Below are positions 1 through 12,028 of a DNA stretch of 12,028 nucleotides, piece by piece (the first letter of the stretch is position 1; every line of letters begins with the position of its first letter). The translations under genes and the position numbers were made by a program. Source of the DNA: Azonexus sp. (GTDB taxonomy: Bacteria; Pseudomonadota; Gammaproteobacteria; Burkholderiales; Rhodocyclaceae); assembly GCA_023150195.1 (NCBI GenBank), contig JAKLLI010000028.1:1-12028 (forward strand). The letters run 5' to 3'. The notes beneath the pieces were generated by a model that saw only the letters and a program-made list of their open reading frames with translations, did no database searches and was not told the origin of the DNA.

Positions 1-156
1 GGCCTCGGCGGGAAATAGCCCACGGCGCAGGATTTCACGAAAGATGCTGTCCGAGGAGAGCTTGCCGCGCGCGTAGTGGTAGGCGAATTTGCCACCGCTC
101 AGGAAAGGGGCGCTGGCTTCATCGAGCAGGGTCTTGAGGAAGGCGTTGGTTTTCAT
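1..156 (-). CDS. Probable class I SAM-dependent methyltransferase, N-terminal part (runs off window edge)
   Basis: Only the first 52 residues are inside the window and no stop is reached. The reading starts MKTNAFLKTLLDEAS and contains an F-A-Y-H-Y-A-R-G-K-L stretch near residues 24-33, then a segment ending G-L-F-P-A-E-A. From memory this resembles the lead-in before the glycine-rich SAM-binding loop of methyltransferases found in aryl-polyene clusters. The SAM loop itself would lie just beyond the edge, so the assignment cannot be confirmed here. The ATG overlaps the stop of the upstream deacetylase gene as ATGA, so it belongs to the same operon and is probably translationally coupled. In aryl-polyene pathways a methyltransferase modifies the aromatic head group. 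Another alpha-helical N-terminus remains possible. Confidence 0.55.
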   Translation of the reverse strand, partial: MKTNAFLKTLLDEASAPFLSGGKFAYHYARGKLSSDSIFREILRRGLFPAEA

Positions 157-953
157 GGGCAGGCGTGGTCGAGTGTGACGGGCGTGAGGCCTTGTTCGGC
201 GAGAGTGGCCAGCAGGCGCGGCAAGACGGAGAGGATGACCGCATTGCCGCTGGCGTCGAGCGCCGCATGGCCATCGTGCAGCAGCAGGATATCGCCGGCG
301 GCGAGATTTTGCGTTAACCGGGCGTGGACCGTATCGGGGTCGCCGCAGCGGGTGTCGTAGGCACGGCGGGTCCACGCTGCCAGATCGAGGTCGAGGCGGG
401 CCAGTACCGGATCGAGAAAAGGGTTGCGCAGCCCGGCGGTGGCGCGGAAGAAGCGTGGCGCCTGCCCACTGAGCTCGCTGAGTGTGGCTTGCGCGGCGGC
501 AATGTCCGCCTGCATGCGGCGCGGCCCCCAGAGCGAAAAGACCTTGGAGTGTGCATCACCGTGATTTTCGATGCGATGCCCACGGGCCACGATTTCGCGG
601 CAGAGCGCGGGGTTTTCCCGCGCCCGCCAGCCAATGCAGAAGAAGCTGGCCTTGGCGTCAGCGGCATCCAGCAGGTCGAGCACGCGCGGGGTGACGTTGG
701 GGTCCGGGCCATCGTCGATGGTGAGGGCGACTTCGCGGCAGGCGATGGCGGCACGTGGCAGGCGCGTGAGCGTGGGGCCGAGTAATTGGCAGCGTGGCAG
801 CAGGCCGGCACTGCTCAAGACCGCGTGATTGGCGACCAGGGCCGCTGCCGCCCAGGGCCAATGGCCCGGCGCCAGTGCCAGACCGGCAGCGGCGGCACCG
901 TGAATGGCCAGGCTGGCCTTGACCGTGGGCGTGGGTTTCCAGTGACGTGGCAT
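153..953 (-). CDS. Polysaccharide deacetylase (NodB-homology, carbohydrate esterase 4 family)
   Basis: The product is 266 residues. NodB-fold signatures appear in order: motif 1 T-I-D-D-G-P-D-P with Asp80 and Asp81, a metal-binding motif 2 with His131 and His135 in E-N-H-G-D-A-H-S, R-F-F-R-A near Arg170, and a C-terminal L-L-L-H-D-G with His226. The family hydrolyses N-acetyl (or other acyl) groups from sugars using a divalent metal. Residues 14-52 are alanine/leucine-rich and probably one or two membrane segments, so the enzyme may be anchored in the inner membrane. The ATG at 953 was chosen because it follows the hydrolase stop by one base; a longer in-frame start at 1193 would run deep into that gene and encode non-family sequence. 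Within this cluster it may act on a glycosylated or amide-linked product, which is inference. Confidence 0.88.
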   Translation of the reverse strand: MPRHWKPTPTVKASLAIHGAAAAGLALAPGHWPWAAAALVANHAVLSSAGLLPRCQLLGPTLTRLPRAAIACREVALTIDDGPDPNVTPRVLDLLDAADAKASFFCIGWRARENPALCREIVARGHRIENHGDAHSKVFSLWGPRRMQADIAAAQATLSELSGQAPRFFRATAGLRNPFLDPVLARLDLDLAAWTRRAYDTRCGDPDTVHARLTQNLAAGDILLLHDGHAALDASGNAVILSVLPRLLATLAEQGLTPVTLDHACP

Positions 954-954
954 C

Positions 955-1605
955 TCAGGCACGCACCGGAAAATGGCCGAGATCGAGAAAATGCGCCCAC
1001 AGTTGACGCCAGGCCGGCCAGTCGTGGTCGCCATCAACGATCCGCCGGGCGGCGGGTGGGAAGCAGTCGGCGATCTGCTGCATGCCTTCGGCAAAACGGT
1101 CGTCCCGGCCATGGCCGGCAAACACCGGCAGCGTGGCGGGAGGCGATTTGAGCCAGCGCCAGACGCGGAACTCCGGATCGCCGAGTTGCTCAACCGTGGC
1201 TTCCCACACGGGCAAGCCGCCGGCGCGGGCGATGGCGTTGGTGGTCAGGCGGCTGCCCGGATAGGGGGCGATCAGGCAGAGGCCGTCGATACTCGCCGGC
1301 TGGTCGGCGGCCTGCATCAGGCTGAGCAGACCCCCCAGCGAAATACCGCCCAGCCACACCCGGCGATAGTGTTGCCGCGCCGGACGCAATAATTGTTCAT
1401 GCACCGCAAGCAGTCCCTGCCCGCTGGAAATGGCTTCCAGATCGAGGTCGACCGCACACAGGTCGAGGTCGAGATTTCGCGCTTCGACGGCGTCAAAAAA
1501 GCCATGGGCGACGAAGTCGCTGGCGGTCATGTAGGCGCCGGGCAGCAGGACCAACAGGTTGCTGCTTTGCCGTTGGAGGCGTTGCGTACTCAGCGGGGCC
1601 GTCAT
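955..1605 (-). CDS. Alpha/beta hydrolase fold protein
   Basis: The product is 216 residues with no signal peptide, so it is likely cytoplasmic. An early beta-strand plus oxyanion segment (L-L-V-L-L-P-G-A-Y) is followed by the nucleophile elbow G-I-S-L-G with Ser89. A late acid lies in G-H-G-R-D-D-R (Asp168 or Asp169), and the catalytic His194 is in D-G-D-H-D-W. This is a complete serine-hydrolase triad of esterase/thioesterase type, in the usual order and spacing. The start ATG overlaps the exporter stop (ATGA), and the next gene begins one base after this stop. It could release or trim an acyl chain from an ACP or the finished lipid; it could also be a carboxylesterase. The substrate cannot be read from sequence. 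Confidence 0.85.
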   Translation of the reverse strand: MTAPLSTQRLQRQSSNLLVLLPGAYMTASDFVAHGFFDAVEARNLDLDLCAVDLDLEAISSGQGLLAVHEQLLRPARQHYRRVWLGGISLGGLLSLMQAADQPASIDGLCLIAPYPGSRLTTNAIARAGGLPVWEATVEQLGDPEFRVWRWLKSPPATLPVFAGHGRDDRFAEGMQQIADCFPPAARRIVDGDHDWPAWRQLWAHFLDLGHFPVRA

Positions 1606-3941
1606 TTTGCCGTTCCACGTGGAACGAACATGGCCCCGAGCAGCAGGGCCAGAATGGCGCCTGGCCCCACGCTGGTGCCAATGGCGTTGAGCACCGGCAC
1701 CGAAGACAAGGCGAGCGTGCCGAAGCCGATGGCGGTGGTGAGGTTGGCGACGCCCATCGAGGTCAGGGTTTCGGGATCGAGCTCGCCCTGCCCCGCTGCG
1801 CGGTCAAAAAACAGCGCGTAGTTGGAGCCCACCGCGACGATCAGCAAGAGCCCGATCAAATGCAACAGATGCAGACGTTGACCGGCCAGATGCAGGCCGG
1901 CCACCACAAAAATCACCGCCAGTGCCAGCGGCAGCATCACGGCGCCGAGGCGGCGCGCGGAGCGCAGGTTGAAGGCCAGCAGGACAACGATGGCCAGCAC
2001 GCCGGCCAGCGAGAGGGTGATGGCCTCGCCGAGATAGCTGGCGTAGAGGGCGTCGAACTCCGCCTTCATGTCGATGAAAAGGGCATCGCTGCCGGCCAGT
2101 GCGGCGCGGATGTCGTTGGCGGGAATCTGCAATTCCCCGCTGCCCATCGCGGGATGCAGGGGCAGCAGCACGCTCCAGCCATTGATCCGCTGCAACATCA
2201 GTGAATCCACGGCCAGTGCGAGGTTGCTGCCATTCAGGTCGGCGCGCGTGATGTCCGGGGCATCGCGGGCGGCGACGACGTCGGCGATGAAGGTATCCAG
2301 TTTGTTGGCGTTCAGCGGCAGGTCGGCCAGGGCTTCGGCGGTGCGCGTCCGCAGGGTGTCGGCATCGGGCAGGGCCGCGCGACGGGCGGCCTGGGCGGCG
2401 TGGCTGGGCAGGAAGCGGGCGGGATTGTCGTAACCGGCGATGACGCCCTGGGCCACCAGCCCGTCCAGCGCCTTGCCGGCGCGTTCGGCAGCGGCCAGCG
2501 CGGCTTCGCGATCCGTGCCGGTGACGACGACCAGATAGCGGGAATCCGGGGCGCCCAAATCGGCCCGCAGGGCGCCGTCGACCGCAGAATCGGCCTCGCT
2601 GGCCGTGCTGAGGGCGGAGAGGTTGGGATGCCAGAGATCATCGCGTACCGCGCCGATGTAGATCAGCGCCAGCAAGGCCAGTCCCAGGGTGGGCCAGCGC
2701 AGACTTTGCAGGGCGGCGAGTACCTTCGCGATGCCCGGCCAGGGTCGGGTGGGCGCGGCGCTATGCACCAGCGGGCCGGCCAGATCGGGCAGGATGTAGC
2801 CGGTGACCAGCGCTGCCGTGAGCACGCCGGCCAGCGAGTAGAGGCCGAGTTGGGCCAAGCCGGGGAAGCCGGAAAAGAGCAAGGCGCCAAAGCCGAAGAC
2901 CGAGGTCGCCACGCCGAGCCGGATGGTGGGCCAGAAACGCTCACGCCACGCGGCCAGCCCGAGGCGGCCGGATTGCACGAAATAGTAGGTGGAATAATCG
3001 ACGGCCTCGCCAATCAGCGCGGCACCAAAGCCCACCGTAATGCCGAACACGGTGCCGTAGGCCAGGCTGACGGCGACCACCCCGGCCAGCATGCCGCTGA
3101 CCACGGGGAGCAGACCCAGCGTCATCAAACGGAGCGAACGATAGACAAAAAACAGCACGGCAATGATCGCCAGGCTGCTGATCACGGTCAGGCGGAAGAC
3201 TTCTTCCTTGATCGTGGCGCGCGCCTTGACGGCAAAGTGCCCGGGTCCGGAGAGCAGCAGGCGGATGTCGGAGCGCCCGGTCGACGCGCGAATCGCCTCA
3301 AATTCGCTGCGGATCAGGGTCAAGGCGCGCTCCTGCCCATCGGTATCGGCGCCCTGGGCCTTGGTTTGTGCGAGCAACATGGCACGCTCGCCATCACGCG
3401 ATGCCCAAACCCCCGAGCGGCTGGCCGGTTGATTGCCCCCACTCAGCGTCACCAGCAGCGCCGGCAGTTCGCCGGTGGGGTCGCGGGTCAGAAAAGGCTT
3501 GAACAGCATGCCGGCGGGCGAGGTGAGCAAGTCGATGCTGTCGGAAAACGCCCGATGCAGGCCGTCGACCGTAAACCGTTCAGGATTGACTGCGGGGCTG
3601 AGGAGGTAGCGATGGGCCAGCAGCAGGTCGCGATCCGCATCGAGGCTGCCGGATTCGCCGTTCTGCACGGCGACAAATTCCGGCATCGCCGCCAGTCGAC
3701 CGCGCAATTCGCGCGACACCTGCGCCCGCTGGCTGGCGTTGCCGCCTTCGATGCCCAGCATCAACAGGCGGGAGACCGCGCCATCCTTGATCTGTTCGAC
3801 CAGGACCTGCTGTTCTGCCGTCGGGTGCGAGGGCAGGAAGAAACTCATGTCCGCCGAAAAGCGGGTCTGCGCCACAATGGCCGCACCGGCCAGCATGGCC
3901 AGCAGCCAGATCAGAAAGCTGCGCAGGGCTTTGGATTTCAT
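1602..3941 (-). CDS. MMPL/RND-superfamily exporter (COG4258-type)
   Basis: The product is 779 residues in the classical duplicated RND layout: TM1 at about 8-25, a periplasmic loop to about 248, a TM block at about 250-390, TM7 at about 416-431, a second loop to about 636, and a final TM block at about 638-775. The first TM block carries G-E-A-V-D-Y with Asp315-Tyr316, the proton-relay pair of MmpL-like transporters. The equivalent place in the second half reads G-S-N-Y (Asn707-Tyr708). Predicted exporters of this type are standard members of aryl-polyene and xanthomonadin clusters and are thought to carry the acylated product across or out of the inner membrane. The gene overlaps both neighbours by ATGA. 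Its last codons contain a parS-like palindrome. Confidence 0.93.
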   Translation of the reverse strand: MKSKALRSFLIWLLAMLAGAAIVAQTRFSADMSFFLPSHPTAEQQVLVEQIKDGAVSRLLMLGIEGGNASQRAQVSRELRGRLAAMPEFVAVQNGESGSLDADRDLLLAHRYLLSPAVNPERFTVDGLHRAFSDSIDLLTSPAGMLFKPFLTRDPTGELPALLVTLSGGNQPASRSGVWASRDGERAMLLAQTKAQGADTDGQERALTLIRSEFEAIRASTGRSDIRLLLSGPGHFAVKARATIKEEVFRLTVISSLAIIAVLFFVYRSLRLMTLGLLPVVSGMLAGVVAVSLAYGTVFGITVGFGAALIGEAVDYSTYYFVQSGRLGLAAWRERFWPTIRLGVATSVFGFGALLFSGFPGLAQLGLYSLAGVLTAALVTGYILPDLAGPLVHSAAPTRPWPGIAKVLAALQSLRWPTLGLALLALIYIGAVRDDLWHPNLSALSTASEADSAVDGALRADLGAPDSRYLVVVTGTDREAALAAAERAGKALDGLVAQGVIAGYDNPARFLPSHAAQAARRAALPDADTLRTRTAEALADLPLNANKLDTFIADVVAARDAPDITRADLNGSNLALAVDSLMLQRINGWSVLLPLHPAMGSGELQIPANDIRAALAGSDALFIDMKAEFDALYASYLGEAITLSLAGVLAIVVLLAFNLRSARRLGAVMLPLALAVIFVVAGLHLAGQRLHLLHLIGLLLIVAVGSNYALFFDRAAGQGELDPETLTSMGVANLTTAIGFGTLALSSVPVLNAIGTSVGPGAILALLLGAMFVPRGTAK
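1611..1626. promoter_or_regulatory. Perfect 16-bp palindrome matching the ParB-binding parS core
   Basis: The bases CGTTCCACGTGGAACG are a perfect inverted repeat. The inner 14 bases, GTTCCACGTGGAAC, equal the parS core described for Pseudomonas and differ from the Bacillus subtilis core (GTTTCACGTGAAAC) at one symmetric pair. ParB binds such sites to nucleate chromosome segregation complexes. The site sits within the exporter gene, coding V-P-R-G-T three codons before its end. Chance occurrence of an exact 14-mer in 12 kb is very unlikely, but ParB binding is inferred from the match alone. Confidence 0.65.
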
Positions 3942-4504
3942 GGGTTGATCGGCTCGATGCTGAGGACGGTGCGGTCGCCGTCGGCCTGGAGGTATTCGAT
4001 TTGCCGCATCTGACCCCGGTTCCCATTGACCACGATGCGCTGGACGAAGTTGGCGATTTTTTCATCGCGCGGCAATAAGGTGAGCACCCACTTGTCGCTG
4101 GCGCCTGATAAATGCAGGGCGTAGTTTTTTTCCAGCGCGGCGCGATTCCCCGACAGGGTGCCGCGGATGCTATCCACAAAAGCCAGGGCTTCGGGCTGAC
4201 TGGCGAGGTTGATGGAAAAGGTCTGCTTGTCGCGGGCCAGGGTCAGCTGATCCTTGTCGAGGACCATGCTTTCCACCTTGGGCTTGAGGGTTTGCTTTTC
4301 CAGGCGATCGGGCGCGACATAGGTCATTTCACCACTGGAGATCAGCGGTTTGTCGAGCACCGCCAAATAACGGGTTTCGACAAAGCGGGCCTTGCCGCCC
4401 TTGTGGCGGGCCAGATCGGACATCAACTGGGTGATGTCGAAAGTGGCGAACGCAGGGAGCGCGGCACAGGCAAGGCAGAGGGAGAGCATCAGGCGCTTGA
4501 TCAT
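3938..4504 (-). CDS. LolA-like outer-membrane lipoprotein carrier protein
   Basis: The product is 188 residues. It begins with a clear Sec signal peptide (M-I-K-R, hydrophobic to about residue 19, likely cleavage after A-F-A at 20), so it is periplasmic. The mature part has the LolA/LolB-like beta pattern: F-V-E-T-R-Y near 41-46, S-S-G-E-M-T-Y near 57-62, and alternating strands to the end. Canonical LolA shuttles lipoproteins from the inner to the outer membrane through a hydrophobic cavity. Paralogues in aryl-polyene clusters are believed to carry the lipidic product handed over by the adjacent MMPL exporter, which is an inference from conserved neighbourhood. Start and stop overlap both neighbours by ATGA. 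This is a cluster-specific paralogue, not the housekeeping lolA. Confidence 0.87.
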   Translation of the reverse strand: MIKRLMLSLCLACAALPAFATFDITQLMSDLARHKGGKARFVETRYLAVLDKPLISSGEMTYVAPDRLEKQTLKPKVESMVLDKDQLTLARDKQTFSINLASQPEALAFVDSIRGTLSGNRAALEKNYALHLSGASDKWVLTLLPRDEKIANFVQRIVVNGNRGQMRQIEYLQADGDRTVLSIEPINP

Positions 4505-5406
4505 TTTTTCTGCCAGAAATCGAAGAAGTTGAACCAGTTATAGGGGGCGAGGCGGCAGTAATGCGCCAGTCGGTCGGCGTAGTTTTGCACGGCGGCCTCG
4601 ATGGCGGCGTTCCGTTCGCTGCGCCGTACATTCGAAAAATCGGCGATTTTTTCGAAATGAATCTGGTAGCGATTGCCGCCCAGATAGAGGCCCGTCATGA
4701 AAAAGACCGGGCGACCGAGCATGGCCGCCATGCGCCACGGCCCCAATGGAAAGGGCGCGGTTTCACCGAGAAATTCGCAGTCGACCGTAGGATCGCCACC
4801 CAGGCTGCGGTCGGCCAGCATGCCGACAAGATAGCCTTGATCGAGCTTGTCGCGGGCGATCAGCATGGAGTCGAACTGGCCAAGCGGGATGATGTCCTCG
4901 GTGGCTTTCGGATTGATGGCTTCGAGGGTGGCGTTGATCTTTCGCGCGTTTTCCTCGTACATCATCATCGCCACCTTGCGCTTCGACTTGCCGCGACCGA
5001 CCGAGCGCAGCACTTCGAAGCTGCCCAGATGGGCGCCGATCAGGAGGGCGCCGGGATGGGTGTCGGCAGCTTCGTGAATGGCATCGGCACCGATCATCTC
5101 GATGTCGAACAGGTCGAAACGGTCGTTGAGCAGGTAAATGCGGTCGTGAATCGTGCTGGCAAAACTGAACACATGGCGGTAGCCGTCGGTCCATTCGGCC
5201 CAGCGTCCCAGCGCCCGATGCAGATAGTCGCGGCTGGCGATGCGTGCGCGGGGCGCAAACAGCGTGAAATAGGCCGCGATGCCGTGCAGCACGATACGAC
5301 CGATGCCCCGGCCGAAGGTGAGCGAAATCCACACCATCAGACGCAGGATGGCGAGATTGCTGCGTTCCTGCTGGCGCATCCAGTCCGGGTTGGCAGGCCG
5401 TGTCAT
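4501..5406 (-). CDS. LpxL/HtrB-like lipid acyltransferase (LPLAT superfamily)
   Basis: The product is 301 residues. It has an N-terminal hydrophobic segment (about 18-50), and then the acyltransferase signature G-A-H-L-G-S-F-E, in which His126 and Glu131 form the HX4E catalytic pair of LpxL-like enzymes. Downstream, A-D-R-S near residues 200-203 and the F-P-L-G-P region resemble the lauroyltransferase substrate-binding blocks. Family members transfer acyl chains from ACP to a lipid or glycolipid at the inner membrane. In an aryl-polyene cluster the natural reading is transfer of the polyene chain, or a companion acyl chain, to a membrane lipid before export. The gene overlaps the upstream dehydratase and downstream LolA-like gene by ATGA each. 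The length is typical for the family. Confidence 0.92.
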   Translation of the reverse strand: MTRPANPDWMRQQERSNLAILRLMVWISLTFGRGIGRIVLHGIAAYFTLFAPRARIASRDYLHRALGRWAEWTDGYRHVFSFASTIHDRIYLLNDRFDLFDIEMIGADAIHEAADTHPGALLIGAHLGSFEVLRSVGRGKSKRKVAMMMYEENARKINATLEAINPKATEDIIPLGQFDSMLIARDKLDQGYLVGMLADRSLGGDPTVDCEFLGETAPFPLGPWRMAAMLGRPVFFMTGLYLGGNRYQIHFEKIADFSNVRRSERNAAIEAAVQNYADRLAHYCRLAPYNWFNFFDFWQKK

Positions 5407-5705
5407 GCGGTCTCCGGACTCAGGCTGCCACTGGCCACCGCGCGCTCACTGGCGATCACGGTGAATGCCAGGCTGCCGCTGGCTTTGGTCACCAGGGAAA
5501 AACGCAGGCTTTCTCCCGGCCCGACCGGGCTCAGAAACTTGGCGTTGCCGATCTGCCAGCGGCTGATTTCCGGCCGCAGCTGGGCGGCCAGTTGCAGGGC
5601 ATGATCGAGCAGGACGACACCGGGCACGATCGGTTGCCCCGGAAAATGGCCGGGAAAGGCCGGATGATCGGCAGGAACGGTCCACTCGGCGTGCAGTTCA
5701 GTCAT
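5403..5705 (-). CDS. Single-hotdog 3-hydroxyacyl-ACP dehydratase, ApeI/FabA-FabZ-like
   Basis: This is a short protein of 100 residues. It contains the FabA/FabZ active-site segment H-P-A-F-P-G-H-F-P-G-Q-P-I-V-P-G-V with His20, and Asp34 fourteen residues later, the same separation as the His-Asp pair of FabA (FabZ uses Glu). This fits a hotdog-fold enzyme that removes water from beta-hydroxyacyl-ACP to give the double bonds of a polyene. The start is the ATG at 5705, eight bases inside the ligase gene; a longer frame upstream to 6002 only reads the ligase out of frame. It overlaps the acyltransferase by ATGA. In known aryl-polyene systems ApeI pairs with a second subunit, ApeP, which is not in this window. 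Confidence 0.88.
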   Translation of the reverse strand: MTELHAEWTVPADHPAFPGHFPGQPIVPGVVLLDHALQLAAQLRPEISRWQIGNAKFLSPVGPGESLRFSLVTKASGSLAFTVIASERAVASGSLSPETA

Positions 5706-7035
5706 GGCGGGTATGGGTCCGGTGCAGGGCCTGAAGCGCGTCGCGCGGTAATTTGCCGGTGCTGTTGCGGGGCAGCGCGGCCACCCGGACCAGCGGGCGC
5801 GGCATGAACACGGCGTCGATGCGTGAACGCAGTGCGGCCTGAATGTCGCGGACACTGAGTGCCGGGGCGACCACGAAGGCGGCAAGCCGGGTGATGCCGT
5901 CGGGCCGTTCATCGTCCGGCAGGTAGAAACAGGCATCGACGATGCCGGGAATGGTGGCGATCTGGTGATTGAGATAGGCCAGCGAGGTGCGCTTGCCGGC
6001 AATGTTGATCAGGTCGGCGTGACGACCGAGCAGCGTAAAGTGGCAGTCGTCGTGAATCTCGATGCGATCGCCCATGGGCATTTCGCCTTCGATATGGCCG
6101 CCGCTGGCAAAGGTGATTTCCTCGTGCTGGCGTAGCCGGATCGCCGGTAACAAAGCCCAGCGCGGGCCATCCGTGGTGCGGCGGACGGCGATTTGCCCAG
6201 TTTCCGTGGAACCGTAAATTTCGTGCAGCGGTGCGCCGGTGCGCTGTTCCGCCCTGGCGGCGAGTTCCAGCGAGAGTGGCGCGGTGGCGGAGAGCAGTAA
6301 ATCGATGGACGGGAGTTCAATCTCTGCAGCCAGCAGCGCCGAGAGATGGAAAGGGGTGGTCACCAGCAGCCGGGGTTGCGGCACGGTACTCAAGGCAGCC
6401 GCAATATCCTGCGGGTAAAAGGGCTTGCCCGCCCAGAAACTGCAGCGTCCATGCAAGGCCAGCAGCAAGGTCGACTCGAAGCCATAGCTGTGCTGGACCG
6501 GCACGGTGCCGACGATGGTATGGGGGCAGTTGTTCAACGCCAGCGCCGCCGCCCCGGCAAGCCCGTTGGCGAGCAGTTTTCCCCAGGATTTGCGGTGCGC
6601 CTGCGGGATGCCGGTGGAGCCGGAGGTGAACAGGATGGCGGCCACCTGATCGGCGGGCACGCTGGGGATTTCCATCACATGCGGCCGGTCGACCGCGTGC
6701 AGTTCGGGAAAATCGAGGCGAGGCAGATCGCCGCTCTCGAACGCGCTATCGCACAGGCAGACGGTGCCCGGAAAATCGTGCTGGATGCGCGACAGGGTTT
6801 CGGCGGATTGCGAGGCCGGCTGCAGGCTGCCCTTGCCGGTGAGCAGGCCGGCGGCAAAGCCCACGGCAAAGCGGTAACGATCCTGACAAACGTTGAGCAG
6901 CCAGTCGCCCGCAGGCAGGCGTGCGGCCAGCAGCTGCGCATCGGCGAGGAATTCACGCACGCTCACCGGCCCGTCGCTGCGCCAGGCAAGGCAGTCATCC
7001 AGCGCGTGGCCGGTAATCAGCGGGAGCGTGTTCAT
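5698..7035 (-). CDS. AMP-forming acyl/aryl ligase (ANL superfamily, ApeH-like)
   Basis: The product is 445 residues, shorter than common acyl-CoA synthetases but usual for cluster-bound aryl-ACP ligases. Visible ANL motifs are A3 F-T-S-G-S-T-G-I-P-Q (136-145), A5 Y-G-S-T-E-T-G (274-280), an A8-like G-R-H-A-D-L-I-N-I-A-G-K-R (337-349), and the A10 lysine Lys428 in N-S-T-G-K-L-P-R. These predict adenylation of a carboxylic acid and transfer to a phosphopantetheine thiol. In aryl-polyene pathways the ApeH ligase activates 4-hydroxybenzoate and loads it on an ACP; the substrate here is inferred from context. The A3 motif ends in Pro-Gln where Pro-Lys is commoner. The gene overlaps the COG4648 gene by ATGA and the dehydratase by 8 bases. 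Confidence 0.92.
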   Translation of the reverse strand: MNTLPLITGHALDDCLAWRSDGPVSVREFLADAQLLAARLPAGDWLLNVCQDRYRFAVGFAAGLLTGKGSLQPASQSAETLSRIQHDFPGTVCLCDSAFESGDLPRLDFPELHAVDRPHVMEIPSVPADQVAAILFTSGSTGIPQAHRKSWGKLLANGLAGAAALALNNCPHTIVGTVPVQHSYGFESTLLLALHGRCSFWAGKPFYPQDIAAALSTVPQPRLLVTTPFHLSALLAAEIELPSIDLLLSATAPLSLELAARAEQRTGAPLHEIYGSTETGQIAVRRTTDGPRWALLPAIRLRQHEEITFASGGHIEGEMPMGDRIEIHDDCHFTLLGRHADLINIAGKRTSLAYLNHQIATIPGIVDACFYLPDDERPDGITRLAAFVVAPALSVRDIQAALRSRIDAVFMPRPLVRVAALPRNSTGKLPRDALQALHRTHTRHD

Positions 7036-7703
7036 GCTTGCGGGTCCGACTGGCGGGCGGGGGACTGCATGCCTTGACGGTAGGCCCGAATGGCGGTGGC
7101 CATGCTCGGGCGTTCTGCGGGCGGCAAGACGCGAATGCGCCAGAGATGCTCGGCCACGAACATCACACCCATCAGCGGGCCGGAGAGCACGTTGGCGTGC
7201 AGCGACCAGATGGCCGGCGAGGCAAAGAGGAAGAGCACGGTCGACACCAGCCCGTTGGCCAAAAAGAACAGTGCCCAGACCAGTGTGACCTGTCGGGTGT
7301 AGCGGGCCTTGAGCGGCGAGATCTCGCCTTGCGCCGCTGCCCGGGCGATGCGGGTGATCAGGGCTTCGCCGGGGCCAAACAGGGTGCGTCCGAAGAACAC
7401 CGCCAGCGCCAGTTGTGAGCCGACGTGCTGCAGGTAATAGAGCAGCGGCACATTGGCGCGCAAGTGCGGCCAGGCCCAGAAGAGCGCCACGCTCGTCAGT
7501 CCGACCCCGGCGGCGATCAGTAGCGGCTGACGCACCCGCCAGAGCAGCCAGGCAATGATCAGCACGAAGGGACCGACCCCGAGGGTGGTGGTGAGATTCG
7601 GACTGCCCTCGCCGGTACTGCCGATGTGTGCGGCAACGGCCCAGGCCACCAGCAGGCCAATGACGGCCAGGCCGCGCAGCAACTGGGCCGGCGTCAGGCT
7701 CAT
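7032..7703 (-). CDS. COG4648-type integral membrane protein of aryl-polyene/xanthomonadin clusters
   Basis: The product is 223 residues, with about six hydrophobic stretches near 9-26, 41-56, 59-78, 85-105, 138-161 and 168-187, so it is an inner-membrane protein. The recognisable central block L-L-Y-Y-L-Q-H-V-G followed by F-G-R-T-L-F-G-P-G-E-A-L (about 87-115), and K-A-R-Y-T-R-Q-V-T-L-V-W-A-L-F-F (about 132-147), is as remembered for the conserved membrane protein regularly found between the ACP and ligase genes of aryl-polyene clusters. Its biochemical role is not established. Location suggests involvement in membrane-associated assembly. It overlaps the ACP upstream and the ligase downstream by ATGA. 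Family membership is fairly sure; function is unknown. Confidence 0.82.
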   Translation of the reverse strand: MSLTPAQLLRGLAVIGLLVAWAVAAHIGSTGEGSPNLTTTLGVGPFVLIIAWLLWRVRQPLLIAAGVGLTSVALFWAWPHLRANVPLLYYLQHVGSQLALAVFFGRTLFGPGEALITRIARAAAQGEISPLKARYTRQVTLVWALFFLANGLVSTVLFLFASPAIWSLHANVLSGPLMGVMFVAEHLWRIRVLPPAERPSMATAIRAYRQGMQSPARQSDPQA

Positions 7704-7984
7704 TTGCTGCGGTGAGCGGCGATGTGTGCGGTCAACGCGCGCAGGGAGGAAAAAATGCGGATGTTGTCTTCGTTGTCGGAGCGCAGCTGAAAGCCGTAGC
7801 GCTTGGAAACGACCAGCGCAATTTCCAGTACGTCGATGGAGTCCAGTCCCAGCCCTTCGCCAAACAAGGGGGCATCGGCTTCGATTTCATCCGCCCCCAT
7901 GTCCAGATTGAGCGCCGAAATGATCAGTTCGGCGACTTCCGGCAACAGGCCGGTGACGACTTCCGGGGAAAGGGCTTCGGACAT
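7700..7984 (-). CDS. Acyl carrier protein (second in operon)
   Basis: The product is 94 residues, acidic, with the phosphopantetheine attachment motif G-L-D-S-I-D; Ser49 would carry the prosthetic group. The segment before it (E-A-D-A-P-L-F-G-E-G-L) and after it (V-L-E-I-A-L-V-V-S-K-R-Y-G) follows the four-helix ACP pattern. The G-E-G-L-G-L-D-S-I-D-V-L-E form is the variant seen in aryl-polyene ACPs rather than the housekeeping AcpP motif D-S-L-D-T-V-E. It lies 17 bases after the ketosynthase stop, with a GGAA ribosome-binding sequence six bases before the ATG, and overlaps the membrane-protein gene by ATGA. It presumably carries the starter or the growing chain. Confidence 0.94.
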   Translation of the reverse strand: MSEALSPEVVTGLLPEVAELIISALNLDMGADEIEADAPLFGEGLGLDSIDVLEIALVVSKRYGFQLRSDNEDNIRIFSSLRALTAHIAAHRSK

Positions 7985-8001
7985 GATGAGTTCCGTGAAG
8001 A

Positions 8002-9249
8002 TCAGGCGGGCACGGCGCGGAAGGCCAGCACCGCGTTGCTGCCACCAAAGGCAAAGGAATTGGAGAGTGCGGCGCGCAGGGGCTGGGCGCGGCTGTGGGT
8101 GATGTGCTCCACCCCGGTGCAGGCGGGATCGAGGGACTCGAGATGGGCCGTCGGCGGAATGCGTTGCTCGCGCAGGGCCAGTACCGTGGTGATGGCTTCG
8201 ATGGCGCCGGCAGCACCCAGCAGGTGGCCGTGCATGGACTTGGTGGCGCTGACCGGCAGTTGCGCTGCCCGCTCGCCAAAGACCTGCTTCAGTGCGGCCA
8301 CTTCCACGGGATCGCCCTCGCTGGTCGCGGTGCCGTGGGCATTGATGTAATCGATGTCGTCAGCGGTCAAACCGGCATCGGCGAGCGTGTCCCTGAGTGC
8401 CCTCACCTGCCCGGCGGCCTCGGGCCTGACCAGATGGCTGTGGTCGCAACTGGTGCCGTAGCCGACGATTTCCCCGAGAATGCTGGCGCCACGGGCTTCG
8501 GCGTGCGCCCAATCTTCCAGTACCAGCGCCGCCCCGCCCTCGCCCAGCACCAGACCACGGCGGTCCGCAGAGAATGGCCGGCAGGCGCGCGGCGAGCTTT
8601 CGGCATCGCCCGGCGCCATGACGCGCAGCGCTTCCCAGGCACGGGCCACGCCGTAGGCTTGCGGTACATCGGAGCCGCCGGTCACCATCACCGTGGCCTC
8701 GCCGGAACGTACCCGCCGAAAGGCTTCGCCGATGGCGATGGCCGACGAGGCACAGGCCACCGTGTGGCTCATGCTGACGCCGCCAAGGCCCAGCTGAATG
8801 GAAATGTGCGCATTGGCGGCATTGTTCATGCCGAGAATGACGGCCAGAGGTGACAGGCGCTCGCGCCCCTTTTGCCAGAGTTCGCGATAGCCTTTTTCGT
8901 AAGCCAGCGTGCCGCCCAGTGCCGTACCCCAGGCACAGCCCCAGGTGGTGCGTGCTTCGCCATCGGTCGTACGGGGTAGACCGGCGTTGTCCCAGGCCGC
9001 GAAGGCTGCGGCCATGCCCAGTTGGGCGAAGCGATCCATCATCGATGCCAGCGGCTTGCCGAGCACGGCTTCCGGATCGAAAGCCGGACAACTGACAAAG
9101 GGGATGGAGAGCGGTCGGGGCAGGTCGTCGGTCAACAGGTGGCGAACCGCAGATTCGCCGGCACAGAGCCGGGCAAAGTAATCGTCGAGGTCGCCGCCAT
9201 ACGGGCTGACCAGACCGAGGCCGGTAATTGCCACGCGCCGCTGGCTCAT
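8002..9249 (-). CDS. Beta-ketoacyl-ACP synthase (KAS I/II-type ketosynthase)
   Basis: The product is 415 residues, full length for FabF-like enzymes. The complete Cys-His-His active site is visible: Cys166 in T-V-A-C-A-S-S-A, His305 in N-A-H-G-T-A-T-S-E-G-D, and His340 in K-S-M-H-G-H-L-L-G-A-A-G. The glycine-rich G-E-G-G-A-A-L-V-L-E and the terminal S-F-A-F-G-G-S-N-A loop are also present. It therefore should be a condensing enzyme and not a decarboxylase-only chain length factor. It would extend an ACP-bound chain with malonyl-ACP. It sits three bases downstream of one ACP gene and 17 bases upstream of another. Aryl-polyene clusters usually have more than one KS; only this one falls in the window. 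Confidence 0.95.
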   Translation of the reverse strand: MSQRRVAITGLGLVSPYGGDLDDYFARLCAGESAVRHLLTDDLPRPLSIPFVSCPAFDPEAVLGKPLASMMDRFAQLGMAAAFAAWDNAGLPRTTDGEARTTWGCAWGTALGGTLAYEKGYRELWQKGRERLSPLAVILGMNNAANAHISIQLGLGGVSMSHTVACASSAIAIGEAFRRVRSGEATVMVTGGSDVPQAYGVARAWEALRVMAPGDAESSPRACRPFSADRRGLVLGEGGAALVLEDWAHAEARGASILGEIVGYGTSCDHSHLVRPEAAGQVRALRDTLADAGLTADDIDYINAHGTATSEGDPVEVAALKQVFGERAAQLPVSATKSMHGHLLGAAGAIEAITTVLALREQRIPPTAHLESLDPACTGVEHITHSRAQPLRAALSNSFAFGGSNAVLAFRAVPA

Positions 9250-9252
9250 GGC

Positions 9253-9492
9253 TTAGCTCTTTTGCGTGGCGATCAGGCCGTCCATCAGCGTGATCATTTC
9301 GCCGACGGAGTTCGGGGTCTTGAGATCAGGGGAAAGCTTGATGCCGAAGCGGTCTTCGAACTCGAAAATCAGTTCGAGCATCATCAGGGAGTCGACCCCC
9401 TGGTCGGACAGGACAGCCTCCGGCGTCACCGCATCCGGTTCAACGCCAAGGCGCTCCTTGAGAAATTCGCGAATCAGGCCAATGGAATCCAT
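9253..9492 (-). CDS. Acyl carrier protein (first gene of the operon)
   Basis: The product is 79 residues, with the carrier motif Q-G-V-D-S-L-M-M-L-E and Ser35 as phosphopantetheine site, an acidic helix II/III (L-E-L-I-F-E-F-E-D-R-F-G), and normal ACP length. It differs from the other ACP in the operon in having D-S-L instead of D-S-I and in charge pattern, so the two probably have separate partners. The ATG at 9492 is the only start giving a full-length ACP. No Shine-Dalgarno precedes it, and a good promoter ends only nine bases upstream, so the mRNA may be almost leaderless. The stop is three bases before the ketosynthase start. Confidence 0.93.
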   Translation of the reverse strand: MDSIGLIREFLKERLGVEPDAVTPEAVLSDQGVDSLMMLELIFEFEDRFGIKLSPDLKTPNSVGEMITLMDGLIATQKS

Positions 9493-9635
9493 AGGCTGCG
9501 GATTTTAGCCGAAAGGCCCTGTTTTCCCAAGGTTTTTACGGGGAAATCTTGTCGAAATCGACTCGGGGCGTTCCGATAAAGCGGGATTTGTTACCATGAC
9601 GTTGCCTTTTTCCTGTCGCATCGGCCTTTTTCTCC
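9493..9635. other. Divergent intergenic region between the operon and the PAP2 gene
   Basis: These 143 bases separate two divergent transcription units and are visibly less GC-rich than the flanking genes, with several T tracts (for example GGTTTTTACG at 9531-9540, and C-T-T-T-T-T runs near 9606 and 9627). The minus-strand promoter lies at its left end. For the plus strand, TTGTCG (9549-9554) and GATAAA (about 9575-9580) are the best elements, but their spacing of 20 is too long to call a promoter with confidence. No operator or RNA gene was recognised. Confidence 0.6.
9502..9530 (-). promoter_or_regulatory. Candidate sigma-70 promoter of the aryl-polyene-type operon
   Basis: On the minus strand TTGGGA (9530-9525, four of six bases of the -35 consensus) and TAAAAT (9507-9502, five of six of the -10 consensus) are separated by exactly 17 bases. 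Transcription would begin about seven bases downstream, around 9495, leaving only two to four bases before the ACP ATG at 9492. That gives a leaderless or near-leaderless message, consistent with the missing Shine-Dalgarno. The call rests on motif matching only. Confidence 0.5.
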
Positions 9636-10310
9636 ATGAATCGCTCTGTTTCTTCCCCTTGGTATTGTCAGCTGGGCTCGCGGATTGCCACGTTGTGGCC
9701 GCTCAAGGCCATTGGGACTTCTGCGTTCATGGCCGTGTTCTTTTGGGCCTATTTTTCGGTGATGGCGGCGCCTGCTTCAAGTCCCGTCGTCATGCCCCGC
9801 CTGTTCCTGGACCATGCCATTCCCTTTTCCACACTGGCGTTTCCCGCCTATGTGTCGTTGTGGGTTTACGTGTCCCTGCCCACGGCCCTGATGCCCGGTT
9901 TTCGGCCCTTGCTGTTGCTGGGCCTGTGGTCGGCAGCGCTCTGCCTGTTTTGTCTGGGGGTGTTCTGGGCCCTGCCGACGGCGGTGCCACCGGCGGAGAT
10001 CGATTGGCAGTTGTACCCGGAAATGGCCTTCATCAAGGGCATTGATGCGGCGGGGAATGCCTGCCCTTCCCTGCATGTCGCCTCGGCCGTGTTTTCCGCC
10101 GTCTGGCTGGCGCGGGTATTGGCCAACGTTGGGGCGCCGGTCTGGCTGCGCTGGGCGAGCGGCCTGCAATGTGCGGTCATCATGTGGTCGACCGTGGCCA
10201 CGCGCCAGCATGTGGTCCTCGACGTCATTGCCGGCGCGCTGGTCGGGCTGGCCTTCGGCTGGGCTTCCTTGCGCCAGATCGAATCGGCGCTTGGTCCGCA
10301 GCGTCTTTAG
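9636..10310 (+). CDS. PAP2-family membrane phosphatase / phosphotransferase
   Basis: The product is 224 residues, very hydrophobic, with about five or six membrane segments (near 27-45, 68-84, 90-113, 148-164, 172-188 and 194-210). PAP2 motif 2 is P-S-L-H (144-147). Motif 3 is S-T-V-A-T-R-Q-H-V-V-L-D (185-196), with His192 and Asp196 as expected catalytic residues. The classical motif 1 (K-x6-R-P) is not evident, which fits the Aur1-like branch instead of standard lipid phosphate phosphatases. The enzyme would act on a lipid phosphate or diphosphate at the membrane. It is divergent from the operon, so a functional link is only suggested by adjacency. The ATG at 9636 lacks an obvious Shine-Dalgarno; an out-of-frame ATG at 9596 reads through the same region without motifs. 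Confidence 0.87.
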   Translation: MNRSVSSPWYCQLGSRIATLWPLKAIGTSAFMAVFFWAYFSVMAAPASSPVVMPRLFLDHAIPFSTLAFPAYVSLWVYVSLPTALMPGFRPLLLLGLWSAALCLFCLGVFWALPTAVPPAEIDWQLYPEMAFIKGIDAAGNACPSLHVASAVFSAVWLARVLANVGAPVWLRWASGLQCAVIMWSTVATRQHVVLDVIAGALVGLAFGWASLRQIESALGPQRL

Positions 10311-10313
10311 GAG
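10308..10313 (+). promoter_or_regulatory. Shine-Dalgarno TAGGAG overlapping the PAP2 stop codon
   Basis: TAGGAG includes the TAG stop of the PAP2 gene and stands ten bases before the ATG (10324) of the Hint gene. A nearer ATG at 10319 opens a frame of only 19 codons. The arrangement suggests re-initiation, coupling the Hint gene to PAP2 translation. Confidence 0.5.
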
Positions 10314-10323
10314 CTTTGATGAA

Positions 10324-11100
10324 ATGGTGCGTGCCCGCAGCAAGGAATACGCAGGCGATGCGTTGTACCGGCAGGTGATCGCCGATGCCCAGGCCGAAAT
10401 GCGCCAAGCGGGCAAGGCGCCCGCGCCCTACGGCTTGTGCTTCGCTACGGGGACGCTGATCCACACCAAGGATGGCTTGAAGCCGATCGAACAAATCCAG
10501 ATCGGGGACTGGGTGCTGACCCAGCCGGAGGAGACCGGGGAGCGGACTTATAAGCGGGTAACACGAACCACGCGCTTTGAGGATGCGGCGGTTTGGACGC
10601 TGACGTACTACCCGAAGGCAGAACGGGACAAGGCCCGGGCAGAGGGGCGGATGATGCCTCGTGGCATCGATCGTCGTTTGGTGGTCACGCCCAATCATCC
10701 GTTCTGGGTGAAAGATAAGGGTTGGATCCAGGTCAAGGATCTTGAGAGACATGACTTGGGCGGCGAGGAATTGGAGTTGAGCGACGGGCAGGGCGCAATT
10801 GTCAGTTCGGTGTCCCCACTCTACCGTACGGTGACTGAGGAAGTGGCATGGCAGGAAGGCGATTTTGATCCCGACAATGGCACGTTAATCGATTTGCGTC
10901 ATGGCGCATCCGGCGAACTGGCGTTTAGGGCTACCGGTGCTTTGCGCGCGATTCAGCCTGACTTCGTCGAGCGTTGGAACGAGGAGTCCTATTTCCGGTG
11001 TTCGGTGTTTAACTTCGAAGTTGAGGATTGTCATACCTACTATGTAGGCACTTTGGGTGTATGGGTTCACAACACGAATGCGTTGATTCATCACGTATGA
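10324..11100 (+). CDS. Orphan Hint-domain (intein/hedgehog-like autoprocessing) protein, polymorphic-toxin type
   Basis: The product is 258 residues. After a 38-residue lead it shows an almost complete Hint module. Block A is C-F-A-T-G-T-L-I-H-T-K-D-G with nucleophile Cys39, followed by I-x-x-I-Q-I-G-D-W-V-L. Block B is V-V-T-P-N-H-P-F-W-V with His125. Block F is F-N-F-E-V-E-D-C-H-T-Y-Y-V-G (229-242), and block G is G-V-W-V-H-N (245-250). In polymorphic toxins such a domain releases a C-terminal toxin; here only eight residues, starting Thr251, follow Asn250. There is no long Rhs or filamentous N-terminus, although P-Y-G-L just before Cys39 resembles the D-P-x-G-L that precedes pretoxin Hint domains. 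The reading frame stays open upstream through the PAP2 gene, so the true start is uncertain; the ATG at 10324 is preferred. GC content drops along the gene. Confidence 0.8.
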   Translation: MVRARSKEYAGDALYRQVIADAQAEMRQAGKAPAPYGLCFATGTLIHTKDGLKPIEQIQIGDWVLTQPEETGERTYKRVTRTTRFEDAAVWTLTYYPKAERDKARAEGRMMPRGIDRRLVVTPNHPFWVKDKGWIQVKDLERHDLGGEELELSDGQGAIVSSVSPLYRTVTEEVAWQEGDFDPDNGTLIDLRHGASGELAFRATGALRAIQPDFVERWNEESYFRCSVFNFEVEDCHTYYVGTLGVWVHNTNALIHHV

Positions 11101-11134
11101 AGCGAAAAAAAACTGGTAACGCACCAGGGCAGCA

Positions 11135-11872
11135 TTGGCCGCGCTGGGGGTTCCCAGTGCCGCTACGGCGACGCATTACCATCACTACCACATCGATTTC
11201 AATGCACCGGCCCGGCAGGGCATTATCCATAGCCGGAATTTGCTGAGTGATGGCGTAAGTATGGATAGCGTTGCGGAGCAACAGAACGGCGAACCGCTTG
11301 ATACAACTGTCTTCCATGATCTGGCGTTCGAACTGGCAAGAGAATGGGGGCTCTCGGAGAACGACATGGACATGTATTTCCCGCCTGATCAGGCCTCAAC
11401 CCAGCCCCCAATGATGATTGTTGCCGCAGCCAATCCGACGAAGGAACGGGTTATTGGTGTGTGCGATGTTGCCCAAGGGAATTCGGCAGAAGGAGGATGG
11501 GTCAGTTTTGGCACAGCTGCACAAAGCTATTTGGTACGTTACGAACACAAGGATCCGATGGATGTCGATATTTCCCGGGTGCAGATCAAGCTGCTCGCCG
11601 TGACTCGACAGCCGGAACATGGATCGCTGACCATGACTAATAACGACCCGTACCCAAGTGCCTTGTATCGCCCCGACGCTGGCTACTACGGCAAGGATCG
11701 AATTGAAGCCACGGTGGCTGTCGGCAATGACGTCGTGCGAGTGGTGTACAACTTCGTTGTGCAGCGCAAAGCTGTCGACAATTTGCAAAACGCCGAATAC
11801 CGTAAGCTTTGCCCCAAAGGACTTAACAGGTTACCCAAAAACACCGTGATGCCTTCGGCTATTCATTGCTGA
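11135..11872 (+). CDS. Predicted exported protein with C-terminal cadherin/Ig-like module; 5' end uncertain (TTG start or frameshifted)
   Basis: The 245-codon frame begins at TTG and reads A-A-L-G-V-P-S-A-A-T-A-T, which looks like the tail of a signal peptide, followed by a histidine-rich H-Y-H-H-Y-H and then I-D-F-N. The middle part (about 45-145) is not recognised. Residues about 155-210 show the pattern Q-P-E-H-G-S-L-T ... Y-R-P-D-A-G-Y-Y-G-K-D ... V-V-R-V-V-Y-N-F-V-V, typical of single cadherin/Ig-like beta-sandwich repeats of bacterial surface proteins. An ATG at 11097 overlapping the Hint stop (ATGA) would give a basic M-K-R-K-K amino end in another frame, and a TAA at 11117-11119 blocks direct extension of this frame. 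A one-base loss between about 11117 and 11134 would explain both. The function is unknown. Confidence 0.6.
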   Translation: MAALGVPSAATATHYHHYHIDFNAPARQGIIHSRNLLSDGVSMDSVAEQQNGEPLDTTVFHDLAFELAREWGLSENDMDMYFPPDQASTQPPMMIVAAANPTKERVIGVCDVAQGNSAEGGWVSFGTAAQSYLVRYEHKDPMDVDISRVQIKLLAVTRQPEHGSLTMTNNDPYPSALYRPDAGYYGKDRIEATVAVGNDVVRVVYNFVVQRKAVDNLQNAEYRKLCPKGLNRLPKNTVMPSAIHC

Positions 11873-12028
11873 CGATGCAAAAATTTCTGGCGGTGTCCCG
11901 CGGAGTGGTGTAAGAGCTGAGGGTTTGGGGTTTGCCGTGGGTGCCCTGCAGGGCACCCACGGCGGGCGCGATCGGGAGGTCATCGGAGAACTCCGGTAAG
12001 GTTGGGTTTGCGAATCTCAATCTCTACT
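11873..12028. other. Gene-free right end of the window
   Basis: No reading frame with family features was found. The stretch contains G-rich sequence (GAGGGTTTGGGGTTTG near 11919-11934), the 30-bp palindrome described separately, and a region after 11964 without recognisable motifs. The next gene presumably begins beyond the edge. Confidence 0.6.
11934..11963. repeat. Perfect 30-bp palindrome (possible terminator or intergenic palindromic element)
   Basis: Two 15-base arms, GCCGTGGGTGCCCTG and CAGGGCACCCACGGC, are exact reverse complements with no spacer, centred on CTGCAG. It lies 62 bases after the stop at 11872. As RNA it would form a very stable GC stem. No T tract follows on either strand, so it is not a textbook intrinsic terminator. 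A dispersed intergenic palindromic repeat or the end of a mobile element are alternatives. Confidence 0.7.

Follow-up and report, generated by a model that had tools for sequence, protein, structure and literature searches.

A predicted parS site at the 3' end of an exporter gene is part of a dispersed, origin-proximal array in the genus Azonexus

The stretch of DNA analysed here (the window) comprises 12,028 nucleotides of the draft genome of an Azonexus sp. (GenBank assembly GCA_023150195.1, contig JAKLLI010000028.1, positions 1 to 12,028 of the forward strand) and carries, on its minus strand, a gene for an MMPL/RND-type exporter (1602..3941; Pfam MMPL, PF03176), which is part of what we take to be an aryl-polyene/xanthomonadin-like pigment cluster. 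The exporter ends in the tail F-V-P-R-G-T-A-K-stop, and its last seven sense codons contain, in frame, a perfect 16-bp palindrome without strand assignment, CGTTCCACGTGGAACG (1611..1626), which encodes V-P-R-G-T. The inner 14 bp, GTTCCACGTGGAAC (1612-1625), match the parS core GTTYCACGTGRAAC exactly. The original prediction, which placed a ParB site with the core of Pseudomonas parS inside this coding sequence, proved accurate in each of these particulars: the letters form the palindrome at this position, the reading frame is the one claimed, and the core is the same 14 bp as in the parS2 and parS3 sites of Pseudomonas aeruginosa, as listed in PMC4368675. In our assessment, the palindrome is very probably a functional chromosomal parS, a ParB site predicted from sequence, and represents one station of a dispersed array shared across the genus. 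This reading is based on the motif, its copy number, its clustering around the origin by synteny, the presence of parA and parB genes and nucleotide conservation at a gene junction where the site itself shifts in position. Taken alone, the window site is an ordinary parS. The unusual part is the dispersed, near-even array, which the original prediction had missed and which is the aspect worth following up.

The palindrome is the sole match with three or fewer mismatches in the window, where chance alone would give 0.54 matches at this level. At the level of the draft genome (G000; 2.52 Mb, 425 contigs, 77% complete), a base-composition model predicts 0.010 copies of the exact 14-mer and 0.027 copies of GTTYCACGTGRAAC, as opposed to three and twelve observed copies, respectively, and zero matches to the reversed controls. 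All three exact copies of the 14-mer share the outer C...G pair. Given the peptide V-P-R-G, the codon choice GTT-CCA-CGT-GGA has a probability of 2.8e-5 under the codon use of nine open reading frames (ORFs) of the window. In the frame of the exporter, the pattern GTT-YCA-CGT-GRA-AC reads V-[SP]-R-[GE]-T, so that a site can be accommodated in a tolerant protein tail.

Evidence for constraint at the nucleotide level comes from the exporter junction, for which 80 loci were sampled from relatives. GTTYCACGTGRAAC occurs in 22 of them, as a single copy per locus over up to 22 kb of sequence, and is absent from the remaining 58. In all 22 loci, the site starts between -24 and +106 nt from the end of the exporter stop codon, with ten sites at -24, four at +8, one at +31, four at +49 and one each at +52, +61 and +106. 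In some relatives, it thus lies past the stop, toward or inside the start of the counterpart of the downstream gene (955..1605, minus strand), which in the window starts on an ATGA and overlaps the exporter stop by 4 bases. The peptide is V-P-R-[GE]-T at nine of the -24 loci, as in the window, and the tenth (L055) has a longer tail with V-S-R-G-T. When the window and nine relatives are compared, 13 of the 14 site columns are invariant and the remaining one is A or G only, as against a single invariant position among 15 upstream wobble positions in the same ten sequences. The wobble bases of GTT-CCA-CGT-GRA are constant throughout this set, and even the G-to-E replacement preserves the parS pattern. 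As the pattern itself was the criterion for the -24 set, to argue from the invariance of this set alone would be circular; the case for constraint therefore draws on the contrast with the flanking wobble positions and with seven tails that use other codons. The motif [VM][PS]R is found in 17 of the 80 tails, ten of which spell it with parS codons and seven otherwise, and two of these seven have a parS at +8 instead. The suspicion that the palindrome is kept beyond the amino acids is thus borne out: where the site is present, synonymous variation is absent from these codons, while similar tails that lack it at this spot vary and use others.

A chance palindrome in coding sequence, devoid of function, would agree with the chemically unremarkable nature of V-P-R-G/E-T and with the occurrence of V-P-R or V-S-R in site-less tails as well. 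However, the invariant wobble bases, the occurrence of a single site at variable positions of the junction in 22 of the 80 loci and the excess of genomic copies, all of them origin-proximal by synteny, make this explanation very unlikely. Decayed versions of parS were sought at 11 of the 58 site-less exporter ends. Four of them had a best match with up to four mismatches, a level reached by about 12.5% of random stretches, and seven had one with five to six mismatches. The four closer matches all fall on the -24 position, in homologous peptide sequence, and loss of a site is indistinguishable at these ends from a site never gained.

The genomic position of the sites was determined by mapping the ORFs encoded on the ten contigs with sites to the origin regions of three genus genomes, G008 (A. 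hydrophilus ZS02, in which dnaA, dnaN and gyrB were identified), G030 and G035. G008 was equated with strain ZS02 because its site coordinates coincide with those of the genome of L054. The nearest named relatives of the draft genome, as judged by the exporter, are Azonexus hydrophilus strains. Synteny places all 12 copies of GTTYCACGTGRAAC, on ten contigs, in the dnaA region of these genomes, with the window site at a distance of ~22 kb (G030), ~21 kb (G035) or ~24 kb (G008) from dnaA. The other sites of the draft are found at the dnaN/gyrB junction and in or beside a lytic transglycosylase gene, a chorismatase gene, metH and others. G030 and G035, each of which consists of a single contig, contain twelve sites from -65.5 to +144 kb and nine sites from -41 to +62 kb, respectively, around the start of the record, where dnaA lies. 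Thus, the motif is present near oriC, and the origin-proximal location envisaged for the site is confirmed through synteny in three relatives, the contig of the window itself not being joined to dnaA. The original prediction had also considered a plasmid or secondary replicon. The fragmentation of the assembly into 425 contigs and the missing physical link between the window contig and dnaA would leave room for this alternative. Its likelihood is nevertheless minimal, given that the gene order matches the dnaA-proximal region in three genus genomes, that the matching region of G030 and G035 sits on their single large contig, and that the draft, at 77% completeness, yielded only one match to the ParB HTH family.

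This match lies on contig C226 (L166), in an mnmG-rsmG-parA-parB block comprising a parA-like gene (4973-5734) and parB (5731-6582), so that chromosomal genes for both partition proteins are present. ParB contains all three ParB Pfam domains, reaches 195.7 bits on TIGR00180 (cut-off 58.45) and has the ParB-family protein 7bnk as its closest solved relative; the ParA-like ATPase matches Pfam AAA_31 and CbiA. By our residue count, the ParB sequence GRSR...N...GHAR provides R, N, G and R at the equivalents of positions 173, 178, 201 and 204 of the Caulobacter protein, which are given as parS contacts in PMC7383237, and R and H at the equivalents of Caulobacter K171 and Q162. Its switch positions are occupied by R and G, as opposed to Q and R in Noc, and its recognition residues are, by the same count, of the parS rather than the Noc type. 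A Noc-binding site (NBS) was therefore rejected as an identity of the palindrome, all the more as ParB, with 215.3 bits on the Noc model, falls short of the cut-off of 315. The ParB of the draft is thus not a Noc-type protein, with no separate search made for a Noc gene or the NBS motif. Full-length SMC was found in five of the six genus genomes tested, and the draft has a C-terminal fragment at a contig edge.

ParB proteins nucleate at parS, close as CTP clamps, slide and spread along DNA, interact with ParA and load SMC. By analogy with this family, ParB dimers would bind the window site and close into CTP-dependent clamps. These clamps would then slide onto the flanking DNA, be moved by ParA and load SMC.

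Instead of serving chromosome partitioning, the palindrome could act locally, as an operator, hairpin or terminator of the pigment cluster that resembles parS. Transcribed into RNA, it could adopt a hairpin of 6 bp with a loop of 4 nt, an 81-nt stretch around it folds slightly better than shuffled sequences (z -1.93), and a second site of the genome is located in a chorismatase gene of the same cluster type. However, unrelated genes, among them gyrB, metH and the lytic transglycosylase gene, contain or flank the remaining ten copies, and across relatives the site moves from a position inside the exporter to one beyond its stop. An intrinsic terminator was rejected, because the stem is not followed by a T-run, and the terminator-like match nearby corresponds to a different stem (1631-1651). 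On balance, we consider a control element of this kind highly improbable.

The motif is found in 34 of 35 same-genus relatives, in two to 15 copies, with G033 (83% complete) having none. The arrays of the genus comprise up to 15 parS over about 30-230 kb. By comparison, other genera of the same family, sampled within 399 genomes of the order, have exactly two sites each (10 of 10 genomes from eight sister genera). Outside the genus, ten of 392 genomes have seven or more sites by our reading of the table, including a tandem-repeat case (G125) and two genomes with tight clusters (G168 and G171). In G125 (contig C61, 134635-136635), at least ten copies of GTTTCACGTGAAAC follow each other at steps of ~220 bp, a quite different mode of parS multiplication.

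The sites of the genus are not only numerous but also widely and fairly evenly separated. Seventeen contig runs, from 16 genus genomes, provided 122 gaps, with a median of 14.1 kb and a minimum of 5.97 kb; 70 of them measure 11-18 kb, and a single gap is shorter than 6 kb, compared with 34.4 expected for uniform placement. Among 21 further gaps outside this main count, there is no gap below 6 kb. Twelve of the 17 runs, from genomes that are not independent of each other, are more even than random at P<0.05. The P value is 0.0001 for G008, and the evenness of G014 was equalled in none of 20,000 simulations. A. hydrophilus DSM 23864 (G070), tested in addition to these runs, has a P value of 0.0005. 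When lone half-sites were used as candidate positions in three genomes, the observed arrays still stood out (G008, P<0.00005; G014, P 0.00015; G030, P 0.00425). An array of up to 15 parS at a spacing of ~14 kb is thus typical of the genus Azonexus. In addition, ten sites with one mismatch (0.78 expected) lie at or beyond the array, including positions -78226, -58813 and 129928 of G030, 401753 and 421980 of G014, and 416621 of G027. Several of them continue the pitch of the array, and they may be weak or decaying parS. Weak sites do not account for doubled gaps: the two 26-28-kb gaps of G008 contain no one-mismatch site. Their counterparts in G030 measure about 15 and 10 kb, and the wide gaps of G008 probably reflect insertions.

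Gene context reveals that the sites occupy slots shared across the genus, with the window site representing slot D and the one-mismatch site at -58813 of G030 falling on slot B. Sites inside conserved genes hold a fixed distance to the gene end (900/903 nt in metH and 1617 nt in the lytic transglycosylase gene), whereas junction sites drift, as seen at the 3' end of the exporter. According to mechanical gene calls, 77 of 110 sites are inside a called gene, and 73 are located within 120 bp of a called gene end, as compared with 26.3% of 8400 random positions. The dnaN/gyrB slot (F) is old: it is found in four of eight genomes examined from other families (G043, G046, G058 and G059), each of which also has one or two sites beside mnmG.

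Several observations weigh against the view that the palindrome is a functional station of an evenly spaced, genus-wide array. The parAB genes lie outside the array; in G030, ~92 kb separate them from dnaA and ~26 kb from the closest exact site, with the mnmG-parA-parB block at -95 to -91 kb, although a one-mismatch site of this genome is closer to them. Similarly, there is no GTTYCACGTGRAAC on the mnmG-parAB contig C226 of the draft. The ParA-like protein stays below the NCBIfam cut-offs of all 25 families shown, so that its naming is based on its Pfam type and its place beside parB. Five of the 17 runs (G018, G016, G027, G028 and G024) and D. agitata (G060, P 0.55) are not significantly even, and since most sites are orthologous, the genomes do not provide independent tests of spacing. 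In G147, a genus member outside the run tests, some neighbouring sites on one contig are ~239 and ~278 kb apart. Finally, the junction site of slot D is present in ten of 14 genus genomes with an exporter and listed coordinates, G030, G032, G016 and G022 having the exporter without it, and 58 of the 80 exporter loci are site-less. Conservation at the nucleotide level is thus real but not universal. The twelve sites of G147 are distributed over contigs C13, C21 and C35, and its array looks broken up by rearrangement.

A dispersed layout is also found in a second lineage, the genus g80 of family f27, in which five genomes (G153, G211, G260, G283 and G345) have eight to ten dispersed sites. The long single-contig runs of four of them show median gaps of 10.8-13.8 kb. 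Evenness is clear in G260 (P 0.011), marginal in G283 (P 0.048) and not significant in G153 (P 0.051) and G345 (P 0.15), and three of the four contain a gap of 2.5-3.4 kb, so that the minimum gap of Azonexus does not apply to this lineage. A genome of a further family (G156) is not significantly even either (P 0.18). For six of the eight sites of G260 and seven of the ten sites of G153, there is no match to an Azonexus slot gene within 1.5 kb. The exceptions in these two genomes are metH, at a distance of ~1 kb, and a weak match to the slot-I gene (30-39% identity) at 0.5-1.1 kb, as well as, in G153, a 27% match to the slot-O gene. This comparison of gene contexts suggests that f27 may have expanded its sites separately to a similar layout.

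What the regular spacing means for the cell is less clear-cut than the identity of the sites. Reported spreading distances vary: B. subtilis Spo0J extends over ~10 kb from a single site, Caulobacter ParB, when placed in E. coli, over no more than 2 kb (PMC5815017), and a 50-kb ParB peak across four sites is described for P. aeruginosa (PMC7022226). A pitch of 14 kb is of the order of B. subtilis-like spreading, from which we infer a tiled arrangement. In this scenario, each parS would load clamps over its own stretch of DNA, close copies would be redundant and lost, and large holes would be disfavoured. It is tempting to speculate that the Azonexus array constitutes a tiled centromere whose ~14-kb spacing was under selection to fit the distance that sliding ParB clamps can cover, providing coverage of ~200 kb. 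Selection would then act more on spacing than on exact position, with sites dying and being reborn in gene junctions, for example at the 3' end of the exporter, as the pitch is maintained, and a similar layout would have arisen separately in at least one other betaproteobacterial family. We regard this model as tentative.

Another explanation, which comes close to an even chance, is that the sites are real parS but their even spacing is without function, having arisen at tolerant gene ends and been frozen by the conservation of gene blocks. Consistent with this idea, the enrichment of sites near gene ends indicates that tolerance to a new site matters, most sites occupy orthologous slots, and the f27 genomes combine short gaps with weak regularity. 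On the other hand, G008, G014 and G030 are still more even than random draws of half-sites, and comparable median gaps occur in another family, most of whose sites are not near the Azonexus slot genes. We consider this frozen scatter at least as likely as a tiled centromere.

The remaining genes of the window are mostly those of the pigment cluster, which continues beyond the exporter on the minus strand (3938..9249). Based on Pfam and NCBIfam matches, it encodes a LolA-like carrier (3938-4504), an acyltransferase (4501-5406), an AMP-ligase (5698-7035), an acyl carrier protein (ACP; 7700-7984) and a ketosynthase (8002-9249), together with an ORF without a Pfam match (7032-7703). Downstream of the exporter, the gene at 955-1605 had no Pfam or NCBIfam match, and its product is presumably hydrolase-like. 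It overlaps with a mechanically called ORF of the polysaccharide-deacetylase family (153..1193, minus strand; Pfam PF01522), whose true start, given this overlap, probably lies further in. Just past the pigment cluster, on the plus strand, there is an ORF with a pretoxin-HINT (PT-HINT) domain (10042-11100; Pfam), followed by one without a Pfam match (11135-11872); both may belong to a variable insertion that separates two parS slots. Elsewhere in the draft, a second exact copy of GTTCCACGTGGAAC (G000, contig C198, L161, 9869-9882) is located near the 5' end of an FkbO/Hyg5-type chorismatase gene and again encodes V-P-R-G-T. This gene belongs to the same type of pigment cluster as the exporter, placing two parS sites in one biosynthetic region.

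Azonexus is a betaproteobacterium and is not known to sporulate. As summarized in PMC8357415, parS sites lie within 5-40 kb in most bacteria, and their scattering, which is confined to a few lineages including the Bacilli, is perhaps tied to sporulation and seems counterproductive for avoiding SMC collisions. B. subtilis, with eight scattered sites over ~0.75 Mb (PMC8357415), resembles Azonexus in having multiple dispersed sites around the origin, but the Azonexus array is denser and more even. The closest likeness in sequence is to P. aeruginosa parS2 and parS3 (TGTTCCAC/GTGGAACA), which have an identical 14-bp core, an origin-proximal location and several copies, although their outer base pair is T-A rather than the C-G of the window site (PMC4368675). 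Ten sites are known in P. aeruginosa, of which the four nearest to oriC do the work according to the same source, as compared with up to 15 in Azonexus, ~14 kb apart. High numbers of parS near the origin are also reported for Streptomyces coelicolor and Listeria innocua, with 22 sites each (PMC5815017). Corynebacterium glutamicum similarly has about ten copies near oriC, but these are contained within 35 kb and nine of them are intergenic (PMC7083940), whereas the single-contig runs of Azonexus with nine or more sites span ~100-230 kb and most sites of the genus lie inside a called gene. We recognised no report of an evenly spaced parS array in Azonexus or Dechloromonas in the literature searched, whose scope did not include Livny et al. 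2007; the term "regularly spaced" in PMC12511625 refers, where it is used there, to ParB complexes in hyphae and not to sites. With the two-site arrangement of other betaproteobacteria, which have a site beside mnmG and one at dnaN/gyrB, Azonexus shares slot F, but it has many further sites, and in the draft and G030 the mnmG-parAB block, unlike that of other families, has no exact parS nearby. Sister genera with two sites thus stand beside a genus with up to 15 sites at near-even spacing, in which gains, losses and small shifts are traceable, making the question of scattered parS directly testable by comparative genomics, ChIP-seq and Hi-C.

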